NCBI RefSeq assembly: GCF_000507245.1
Contig: NC_023035.1
Span: 2,209,501 to 2,273,500 of the forward strand
Direction: 5' to 3'
Source of the DNA: Salinispira pacifica
GTDB lineage: Bacteria; Spirochaetota; Spirochaetia; DSM-27196; Salinispiraceae
DNA: 64,000 bases
The notes below the pieces were generated by a model. That model was not told the origin of the DNA. It did no database searches and saw only the letters and a list, made by a program, of their open reading frames with translations. A program made the translations under genes and the position numbers. Below are positions 49,503-51,120 of this stretch, piece after piece (positions within the stretch are counted from its first letter, which is position 1; each line of letters starts with the position of its first letter).

Positions 49503-49679
49503 TATCCAGGGGCAGTGCACCAAAGCTTGTAAAACAGCCTGATTCGACAACGGCGGATGAAAACCGCCGCCAGCGATGGCGGTGGGCCTAAAGTGCAGCG
49601 CTATATATGCCCCCGAAAAAGCAGCGAAAACACTCTTCACAAGCTTCTGTGCACTGACTAAATTTTCCCAAAAACCATA

Positions 49680-49708
49680 TTGACAGTTTTTTTCCAATCC
49701 TGTACATT
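49680..49708 (+). promoter_or_regulatory. Sigma-70-type promoter of tRNA-Asn
   Basis: TTGACA (49680-49685), 17-bp spacer, TACATT (49703-49708), about 20 bp before the tRNA. Confidence 0.8.
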
Positions 49709-49728: not shown

Positions 49729-49801
49729 TCCCCTGTAGCTCAGCTGGTAGAGCAAATGACTGTTAATCATTGGGTCGTTGGTTCGAGTCCAACCGGGGGA
49801 G
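49729..49801 (+). tRNA. tRNA-Asn (anticodon GTT)
   Basis: Acceptor TCCCCTG with CGGGGGA, D-arm GCTCAGCTGGTAGAGC, anticodon arm ATGACTGTTAATCAT, T-arm TTGGTTCGAGTCCAA, discriminator G. CCA is not encoded. Its last 18 bases recur at the end of each downstream repeat. Confidence 0.98.
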
Positions 49802-49806
49802 CTAAA

Positions 49807-49842
49807 AAAGATCGGTTACCGAAAGGTGACCGATCATTTTTT
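49807..49842 (+). terminator. Terminator after tRNA-Asn
   Basis: GATCGGTTACC-GAAA-GGTGACCGATC followed by ATTTTTTAT: an 11-bp stem with GAAA tetraloop and T run. It stands between the tRNA and the first repeat. Confidence 0.9.
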
Positions 49843-49854
49843 ATGTCCAACACT

Positions 49855-50029
49855 GGACTCGAAGCTCCCGAAAGGCGCGAACGCTGTGAGCGCGCATCTT
49901 CAGGATGAAGATGCAGTGAGGGGGACGGCCTGCAGCGAAGCCACAGGACGTGGCTGAGTGGAAGGCGAGTCCAACCGGGGGAGTAAAAAAAAGCTGTTCG
50001 GGTTTATCCCGGACAGCTTTTTTTATTTT
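49855..50029 (+). ncRNA. tRNA-Asn-linked structured repeat, unit 1 (CsrA-sponge candidate)
   Basis: Predicted RNA module in a 185-bp tandem repeat. The outer stem is GGACTCG with CGAGTCC. Inside, hairpin 1 (49894-49914) has an 8-bp perfect stem and the loop AGGAU closed by C-G (CAGGAUG). Hairpin 2 (49939-49955) has a 6-bp perfect stem and the loop AGGAC (CAGGACG). Both match the CAGGA(U/C/A)G loop motif that CsrA/RsmA binds in CsrB-type RNAs. The module ends with the 18-base tRNA-Asn 3' copy (49966-49983) and a terminator (stem AAGCTGTTCGGG, T7). This unit differs from the others by CCCGAAAGG and by lacking ATG before GACTCG. Transcription, by read-through from tRNA-Asn or its own promoter, is inferred. 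Confidence 0.6.
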
Positions 50030-50039
50030 CGCAGAAGAT

Positions 50040-50214
50040 GGACTCGAAGCTCCCGAACGGCGCGAACACTGTGAGCGCGCATCTTCAGGATGAAGATGCA
50101 GTGAGGGGGACGGCCTGTAACGAAGCCACAGGACGTGGCTGAGTGGAAGGCGAGTCCAACCGGGGGAGTAAAAAAAAGCTGTTCGGGTTTATCCCGGACA
50201 GCTTTTTTTATTTT
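50040..50214 (+). ncRNA. tRNA-Asn-linked structured repeat, unit 2
   Basis: Same structure, exactly 185 bp after unit 1. Both AGGA-loop hairpins are unchanged; differs by CCTGTAACG in place of CCTGCAGCG between the hairpins. tRNA 3' copy at 50151-50168. Confidence 0.6.
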
Positions 50215-50224
50215 CGCAGAAGAT

Positions 50225-50399
50225 GGACTCGAAGCTCCCGAACGGCGCGAACACTGTGAGCGCGCATCTTCAGGATGAAGATGCAGTGAGGGGGACGGCC
50301 TGTAACGAAGCCACAGGACGTGGCTGAGTGGAAGGCGAGTCCAACCGGGGGAGTAAAAAAAAGCTGTTCGGGTTTATCCCGGACAGCTTTTTTTATTTT
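50225..50399 (+). ncRNA. tRNA-Asn-linked structured repeat, unit 3
   Basis: Identical to unit 2 by eye, 185 bp later; tRNA 3' copy at 50336-50353. Confidence 0.6.
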
Positions 50400-50409
50400 C
50401 TCACATGAT

Positions 50410-50584
50410 GGACTCGAAGCTCCCGAACGGCGCGAACGCTGTGAGCGCGCATCTTCAGGATGAAGATGCAGTGAGGGGGACGGCCTGCAGCGAAGCCACA
50501 GGACGTGGCTGAGTGGAAGGCGAGTCCAACCGGGGGAGTAAAAAAAAGCTGTTCGGGTTTATCCCGGACAGCTTTTTTTATTTT
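50410..50584 (+). ncRNA. tRNA-Asn-linked structured repeat, unit 4
   Basis: 185 bp later. AACGCTG replaces AACACTG, which keeps pairing with CAGTG through a G-U pair; TCACATGATG replaces CGCAGAAGATG before the outer stem. Both hairpins unchanged. tRNA 3' copy at 50521-50538. Confidence 0.6.
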
Positions 50585-50594
50585 CGCAGAAGAT

Positions 50595-50766
50595 GGACTC
50601 GAAGCTCCCGAACGGCGCGAACACTGTGAGCGCGCATCTTCAGGATGAAGATGCAGTGAGGGGGACGGCCTGCAGCGAAGCCACAGGACGTGGCTGAGTG
50701 GAAGGCGAGTCCAACCGGGGGAGCTAACAAAATCCCATATGCTGCTAAGCATGTGGGATTTTTTTA
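50595..50766 (+). ncRNA. tRNA-Asn-linked structured repeat, unit 5, with a different terminator
   Basis: 185 bp later with both hairpins unchanged. The tRNA 3' copy (50706-50723) is followed by GCTAACAAAA like the tRNA itself, and by a terminator of unrelated sequence (AATCCCATATGCT with AAGCATGTGGGATT and T7). Confidence 0.6.
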
Positions 50767-50772
50767 TACTCA

Positions 50773-50877
50773 TACAAGGTGGACTCGAAACCATATCGTG
50801 CGTACCGCAGCGGCATGGGCCGATGCGAGTAACGTATGAAAGATCCCGGGTGCGAACGCTGTGAGGGTGTATCCGGA
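50773..50877 (+). repeat. Decayed remnants of the 185-bp repeat
   Basis: TGGACTCGAA recurs near 50781, and GGTGCGAACGCTGTGAG near 50850 matches the core of the units. The hairpins and tRNA copy are lost. Confidence 0.6.
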
Positions 50878-51120
50878 TTACTGTACCTGAGGGCTTTCAA
50901 CCTGTTCTATGAGAATCTCCAGCCCGAACACGGCATATTTTTCCAGATACTCCGCCCCGCCTTCGGGAGTTTCGCCCAGGAAATTTCTGTACCAGTCAAG
51001 AAGGCGGTACTGATCCAGACTCATCAGCACGGTATCGGGATTTTTGCCCCGGGACTGTGCTTCATGAAGCTGTCGGTATATTTCGGCTATCAGTTCTTCC
51101 GGCCGGATTGTGGTTTCCAT
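50878..51120 (-). CDS. Hypothetical small protein, 80 aa
   Basis: Acidic soluble protein, MRPEE-like start (METTIRPEELIAEIYRQLH), helical throughout, with SLDQYRLLDWYRNFLGE and EYLEKYAVFGLEILIE. Not recognised. GGAGG lies about 15 bases upstream, somewhat far. Coding is supported by composition and by its position on its own between the repeat array and the pyrophosphatase gene. Confidence 0.65.
   Translation of the reverse strand: METTIRPEELIAEIYRQLHEAQSRGKNPDTVLMSLDQYRLLDWYRNFLGETPEGGAEYLEKYAVFGLEILIEQVESPQVQ

Follow-up and report, generated by a model that had tools for sequence, protein, structure and literature searches.

Why should the 3′ end of a tRNA gene recur, base for base, behind that gene? 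The tRNA-Asn locus of Salinispira pacifica raises this question. It lies in a stretch of 64,000 nucleotides (nt) of NC_023035.1 (2,209,501-2,273,500), hereafter the window, to which all coordinates below refer unless otherwise indicated. The 18-mer at the end of the tRNA, CGAGTCCAACCGGGGGAG, is present in six exact copies starting at 49784, 49966, 50151, 50336, 50521, and 50706, with a spacing of 182 bp once and of 185 bp four times. A first-pass annotation of this DNA had reported the tRNA end (49784-49801) and five perfect recurrences at such distances, and exact string matching reproduced both the places and the spacing. No further match with up to three mismatches was found in the window, where 0.05 would be expected by chance. 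By its defining features, the array formed around these copies is an array of tRNA-linked repeats (TLRs). Comparative sequence data further suggest that its units probably bind CsrA, are transcribed by read-through from the tRNA, and act like the Escherichia coli RNA RrB. The array is composed of the following features:

49680..49708, plus strand: sigma-70-like promoter of tRNA-Asn, TTGACA-17-TACATT (consensus match only)
49729..49802, plus strand: tRNA-Asn(GTT), called by ARAGORN
49784..49801, plus strand: tRNA 3′ end from C56 to the discriminator, source of the copies (exact match)
49810..49843, plus strand: predicted terminator T1, between the tRNA and the first unit
49854..49983, plus strand: unit 1, with anti-T-arm at 49854-49863, GGA hairpin 1 at 49894-49914, GGA hairpin 2 at 49939-49955, and tRNA 3′-end copy at 49966-49983
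50039..50168, plus strand: unit 2, tRNA copy at 50151-50168
50224..50353, plus strand: unit 3, tRNA copy at 50336-50353
50356..50394, plus strand: terminator 3′ of unit 3, with near-identical sequence after units 1, 2, and 4
50409..50538, plus strand: unit 4, tRNA copy at 50521-50538
50594..50723, plus strand: unit 5, tRNA copy at 50706-50723, with a subsequent CT that the tRNA also has
50729..50762, plus strand: array-closing terminator, different from the others
50780..50865, plus strand: sixth-unit remnant, with anti-T-arm TGGACTCGAA at 50780-50789 and GCGAACGCTGTGAG at 50852-50865 (read from the sequence, without a model score)

Each repeat of ~185 bp comprises an anti-T-arm, a core of two hairpins, the 18-nt tRNA copy, and a terminator, in this order, and the first unit starts 52 nt 3′ of the tRNA. 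Tandem Repeats Finder delimited the array to 49854-50732 (period 185, 4.7 copies, 97% matches). The 5′ end of the unit, TGGACTCGAA, is the exact reverse complement of ten T-arm bases of the tRNA, from T54 on. The two hairpins read GCATCTTC-AGGAT-GAAGATGC and AGCCAC-AGGAC-GTGGCT, and the five units together carry ten of these GGA-loop hairpins, whose CAGGA(T/C)G loops are of the CsrA/RsmA recognition type. The sixth-unit remnant has lost the hairpins as well as the tRNA copy. A unit with its terminator folded better than all 200 shuffled sequences (z −6.9). Among the open reading frames (ORFs) of 49854-50732, we found no recombinase or plausible gene, only one antisense frame of 133 aa (50393-50794).

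In E. coli, 22 TLRs are described in ten loci that hold between one and five of them, and every repeat copies 18-19 bp from the 3′ end of the tRNA or rRNA before it; according to the same account, they have been known since 1978 and have no known function (PMC8144298). The S. pacifica array stands directly behind a tRNA gene, all five of its units carry 18 nt identical to the 3′ end of that tRNA, and it comprises five units and a remnant. The first-pass annotation had drawn a parallel to the E. coli tyrT repeats, which is right in design, as the upstream 3′-end copy of 18-19 bp is what defines a TLR (PMC8144298). Our searches of a set of open-access papers brought up no description of elements of this kind in spirochaetes.

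When the 185-bp unit was used as a BLAST query on the 3.78-Mb S. pacifica genome (E ≤ 10), the tRNA-Asn array was the only place to match it in full. The first-pass annotation had named frequent occurrence of the 18-mer elsewhere as an observation that would speak against it; an exact copy is expected to appear in the BLAST output at this threshold, and none was there. A permissive Rfam scan of the array gave CsrB (E 7e-5) and PrrB/RsmZ (E 2e-4) as the best non-tRNA matches. Only tRNA reached its gathering score, while CsrB attained 25.9 of 71 bits and PrrB_RsmZ 28.8 of 44 bits, which rules out membership of the array in the CsrB or RsmZ family of Rfam. Other sub-threshold matches to small RNA (sRNA) or microRNA families were taken as chance. 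Run over the whole genome, the CsrB model picked the tRNA-Asn array and a second one (G numbers denote sampled genomes, G000 being that of S. pacifica, and L numbers fetched loci):

G000:C1:3216618-3217507 (L094:3119-4008): second array, behind tRNA-Pro(GGG), five units of ~188 bp

The tRNA-Pro array follows the same plan in diverged form. Its anti-T-arm and copy fit tRNA-Pro, its loops read CTGGATG or CCGGATG, and it ends with a different terminator and then a degenerate sixth unit that carries a tRNA 3′-end copy of its own. Neither this array nor the inverted T-arm copies and GGA-loop hairpins had figured in the first-pass annotation. The structure of the unit was derived by RNAalifold on a MAFFT alignment of the ten units; between the Asn and Pro units, 15 of the 33 base pairs are altered on both sides and none is broken. 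The same genome carries csrA directly behind fliW.

At the DNA level, the whole unit as query retrieved short pieces only from relatives, and we therefore turned to covariance models: R1, built from the ten units of both arrays, and R2, built from 124 matches. R1 matched at least 63 of 392 genomes of the phylum (E ≤ 0.01) and R2 at least 86 of 392 (E ≤ 0.001), in at least 42 of 167 genera; these genome counts are lower bounds, with at most eight candidates scored per genome under strict filters. From among the R1 matches listed, 60 regions were fetched. Among the matches listed from a pattern scan (88 in 80 loci), 55 had a tRNA copy 13 nt or longer, and the carriers included Treponema species, Spirochaetaceae, Breznakiella homolactica, Gracilinema caldarium, one Brevinematales metagenome-assembled genome (MAG), and several “Deltaproteobacteria” MAGs. 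The listed pattern matches without a nearby tRNA include evident chance ones, for instance in Rhodococcus. Six “Deltaproteobacteria” MAGs had 5 to 14 matches each, and in the phylum of one of them, 20 of 395 genomes matched (E ≤ 1e-5).

Across 120 distinct units, 93% of the cells are paired, and 31 of the 33 pairs are altered on both sides. The covariation score was 0.672, as compared to 0.176 for shuffled and at most 0.082 for slid alignments; because the 120-unit alignment was fitted to the model, these counts lean toward it. While the stems vary freely, most loops of hairpin 1 read CA(N)GGA(N)G and most of hairpin 2 CA(G/C)GA(N)G, the variable position of the latter (A-GGA-N or A-CGA-N) being almost only G or C.

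Next, we assigned to each of the 124 matches the nearest upstream tRNA, without a distance limit inside each fetched stretch. A same-strand upstream tRNA was found for 110 matches, in 82 cases within 120 nt and mostly at 45-75 nt, and the host tRNAs represent 15 amino-acid types. The tRNA copy measured at least 17 nt in 92 of the 110, and the anti-T-arm at least 9 nt in 106. The other 14 matches comprise four units in three loci (L135, L163, and L166) that stand behind transfer-messenger RNA (tmRNA) and carry its 3′ end as their copy; the remaining 10 are located at the edge of a contig or are preceded by a T-arm-like 3′ end without an ARAGORN call. At L179 (G004:C67), L175 (G326:C40), and L115 (G344:C1), a T-arm/acceptor 3′ end stands upstream with no ARAGORN tRNA, and the tRNA genes there are possibly broken or interrupted. 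In the deltaproteobacterial MAGs, where CCA is encoded in the tRNA genes, the copy reaches CCA and measures 21-22 nt, while elsewhere it is usually 18 nt. Thus, the copy ends where the RNA ends. A terminator was predicted between the tRNA and the first unit in 54 of 75 loci (1 of 375 in shuffles) and behind the unit in 39 of 71.

Subsequently, we scored GGA-loop hairpins of at least five pairs in non-redundant units. Of 94 units from genomes that carry csrA, 87 had at least one and 35 had two. Units totaling 12775 nt contained 122 such hairpins; in the flanks, taken as the first 1000 nt of each fetched locus, we counted 33 over 182000 nt-strand, and 13 of 1880 shuffled units had one. In a low-score control of 14 hand-picked weak units from csrA-bearing genomes, a GGA-loop hairpin was seen in 7, and in 11 when CGA loops are counted as well. 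In contrast, none of the eight units from the csrA-less genomes G056, G281, and G377 had a GGA- or CGA-loop hairpin, although their elements retain the tRNA link, the copy, the anti-T-arm, and stems. The two units of G056 have lost both hairpins, and their P2 helix differs by a compensated change.

In a variant form, at L371, L372, and L373 of the deltaproteobacterial MAGs G441 and G445, two or three GGA-hairpin modules are nested in one closing helix; these units stand behind tRNA-Ser or tRNA-Val.

As we picture it, the unit would be an RNA of ~130 nt, closed by a helix of its 5′ anti-T-arm with its 3′ tRNA-end copy and presenting A(N)GGA in the loops of its two hairpins. RNA polymerase starting from the tRNA-Asn promoter would occasionally pass the terminators and thereby produce unit RNAs, which would bind the CsrA dimer and draw CsrA off mRNAs, so that free CsrA would drop at high tRNA synthesis. 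The terminator-flanked units share their layout with E. coli RrB, a read-through RNA that binds CsrA in vitro (PMC8144298). Transcription and processing of the units, CsrA binding, its titration, and the coupling to growth are what we infer here.

Several observations weigh against this proposal. Terminators precede the units, and a sigma-70 consensus scan listed no promoter-like site inside the array. The link to csrA at the genome level is weak, as the element occurs in at least 80 of 332 genomes with and at least 6 of 60 without csrA above the cut-off (p 0.017, a value uncorrected for kinship), and it is missing from most of the sampled csrA-bearing spirochaetes. Two genomes without a csrA match, G268 (99% complete) and G400, retain GGA loops in 4 of 4 units; G403 likewise has no csrA match, its units standing outside the hairpin scoring. 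The genus mates of all three have csrA, and an assembly gap or a recent loss of csrA is therefore possible. The deltaproteobacterial MAG G440 also has elements and no csrA above the cut-off. The eight csrA-less units that lack the loops come from three genomes of two families, and GGA-bearing units had served to build the models. About one-third of the hairpin-2 loops are A-CGA-N rather than A-GGA-N (ACACGATGT, for example, in 14 of 98). G-U pairs are rare in the units, at 39 of 2604 cells with 15 A-C, as compared to 44 of 539 with no A-C in the host tRNA acceptor stems; the low total would be odd for RNA selection alone and suggests that DNA-level processes also help to perfect the stems. Moreover, a CsrA antagonist already exists in FliW (for its role, see PMC7652899), and the E. 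coli TLRs of tRNA operons, 19 in number, are predicted to be non-binders, with reported scores below 0.01 in a predictor of CsrA ligands (PMC8144298).

The alternative that best survives, though we consider it unlikely, is a tiny mobile or site-specifically inserted DNA element whose hairpins act in single-stranded DNA, with the CsrA sites as cargo or coincidence. The copy from C56 to the tRNA end would then be an att-like duplication and the tandem units repeated insertions. Such an origin agrees with the fixed T-loop start of the copy and its end at the tRNA end, be it at 18 nt or at 21-22 nt with CCA, and with stems almost without G-U. The distribution of cores agrees with it as well. Mean core identity was 0.585 between loci within one genome, 0.514 for the same tRNA across genomes, and 0.466 otherwise, and for 25 of 96 units, the nearest-neighbor core lay in the same genome. 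Cores 0.88-0.99 alike stand behind different tRNAs of one genome, as in G233 (Arg/Trp, 0.88) and G315 (Ser/Ser, 0.96), and their ends follow the local tRNA. Thus, cores seem to move or convert between tRNA genes. The repeated integration of a tiny element, one of the two origins offered by the first-pass annotation, holds up insofar as near-alike cores with local ends fit such a spread, but neither an integrase nor a junction was found. The annotation had also called for an empty site, and G013 provides an orthologous one, with tRNA-Asn, a single terminator-like hairpin, and then the same small downstream gene (46% identity); it does not speak against the finding. Among 48 loci around tRNA-Asn matches, only the S. 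pacifica locus carries units, which leaves no series of strains in which to compare repeat numbers. Other observations disfavor a mobile element: the units contain no ORF or recombinase, the anti-T-arm also fits the local tRNA, which simple insertion does not provide, and the GGA loops disappear together with csrA, whereas the other parts are retained. Furthermore, G-U outnumbers A-C, as would be expected if the sense strand is the one that folds.

Quite unlikely, in our view, is a cis element of tRNA transcripts, in which the anti-T-arm would pair with either the real T-arm or the copy and this fold switch would control tRNA or tmRNA maturation, with CsrA as a modulator. The anti-T-arm does usually complement T54 and T55 too, which are absent from the copy, and exceeds the copy by two bases in 24 of 38 scored loci and by three or four in 11; the presence of units behind tmRNA points the same way. 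However, a terminator separates tRNA and unit in most loci, the distance to the tRNA is large for the later units of an array, and it is the copy with which the anti-T-arm pairs in the covarying closing helix. A functionless mutational by-product, arising by tandem duplication from the tRNA end with gene conversion and hairpin correction, would account for direct repeats that often include the terminator (L200) and for the near-identical units at tRNA-Asn with their near-perfect stems, but it is highly improbable given that nearly all pairs covary across the phylum, that the loops stay A(N)GGA while the stems vary, and that, in our sample, the loops are absent where the whole lineage lacks csrA.

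Two further features lie beside the array. Directly 5′ of the tRNA-Asn promoter, an imperfect inverted repeat of ~140 bp (49517-49660), AGTGCAC-AAAGCTTGT ... ACAAGCTT-TGTGCACT, encloses a GC-rich hairpin and appears to be a small structured element of its own. On the other side, a small protein of 80 aa (50878-51120, minus strand) has no Pfam match and is kept beside tRNA-Asn in G013.

Our proposal of CsrA-binding TLRs can be extended, tentatively and with less confidence than we place in the local reading. TLRs might be an old cross-phylum family of CsrA-binding RNAs that retarget among tRNA and tmRNA genes, take both ends from the host RNA (the inverted T-arm in 5′, the 3′ end behind), and tie CsrA to stable-RNA synthesis. 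RrA, RrB, and RrF would then be late members that kept CsrA binding, while the other E. coli repeats and those of csrA-less spirochaetes would have lost it. The TLRs of Spirochaetota and some deltaproteobacterial lineages carry covarying CsrA-type hairpins, which are missing in the sampled csrA-less lineages, and these comparative data yield a specific, testable hypothesis for the purpose of TLRs. If true, it would add CsrA-binding RNAs to organisms with the FliW route and tie translation capacity, as tRNA, tmRNA, and rRNA synthesis, to a global post-transcriptional regulator. How both ends come to rematch each host tRNA exactly is in itself a puzzle of genome evolution.

With CsrB/CsrC and RsmX/Y/Z, the array shares several GGA motifs in hairpin loops, the CsrB loop reading CAGGA(U/C)G. 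In contrast to the array, these RNAs have their own genes and promoters and no known tRNA link, and the array stays below their Rfam gathering scores. They are described as widespread in Gammaproteobacteria (PMC7652899). As proposed, the units would resemble 3′ETS-leuZ in being sRNAs from a tRNA transcript. 3′ETS-leuZ acts through base pairing and is not known to have a repeat or a tRNA copy. It and other tRNA-derived sRNAs arise from tRNA transcripts (PMC8144298). Elements integrated at tRNA 3′ ends have in common with the array a direct repeat that starts in the T-loop and runs to the end of the tRNA, whereas the array has no recombinase, units of ~130 bp, and an inverted copy at the other end. 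An origin by tRNA-primed reverse transcription, brought to mind by the likeness of the 18-nt copy to a primer-binding site, was dropped because the copy starts at C56, before position 58, where tRNA modification would stop such copying. Integron attC sites and IS110 bridge RNAs were also set aside, as their motifs appear to be absent.

The repeats of E. coli tRNA operons (tyrT/tyrV, lys, and arg; rtT RNA) come closer. In ten E. coli K-12 stretches, the tyr, lys, and arg repeats stand behind tRNAs, in tandem or dispersed, with 18-19-nt 3′-end copies. The 5′ part of their unit is complementary to the copy, and the lysQ and lysV repeats also carry a 13-nt anti-T-arm. They differ in lacking two such GGA hairpins and in a copy that starts ~1-2 bases later (A57/A58). 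With default filters, R2 gave three matches at E ≤ 10 in the ten stretches: RrB (0.02), RrF (0.14), and a third that overlaps argV. Without filters, in six E. coli stable-RNA loci (25.5 kb), 6 of its top 10 matches were sense-strand TLRs with weak E-values of 0.013-0.1, namely, tyrT/tyrV repeats (E 0.019-0.076 for the tyr repeats), RrB, and RrF. The first-pass view that the two systems have unrelated sequence, with convergence as one of two options, is thus doubtful, even if such E-values are no proof. The best E. coli match of R2 was RrB (E 0.013). RrA, RrB, and RrF lie between two rRNA-operon terminators, are read-through products, and bind CsrA and Hfq in vitro, so that they share with the array the order of stable RNA, first terminator, small RNA with GGA loops, and second terminator (PMC8144298). 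They differ in standing behind 5S rRNA as single copies and in matching the closing helix of R2 poorly. To judge from sequence, a distant kinship between the spirochaete and the E. coli repeats is possible.
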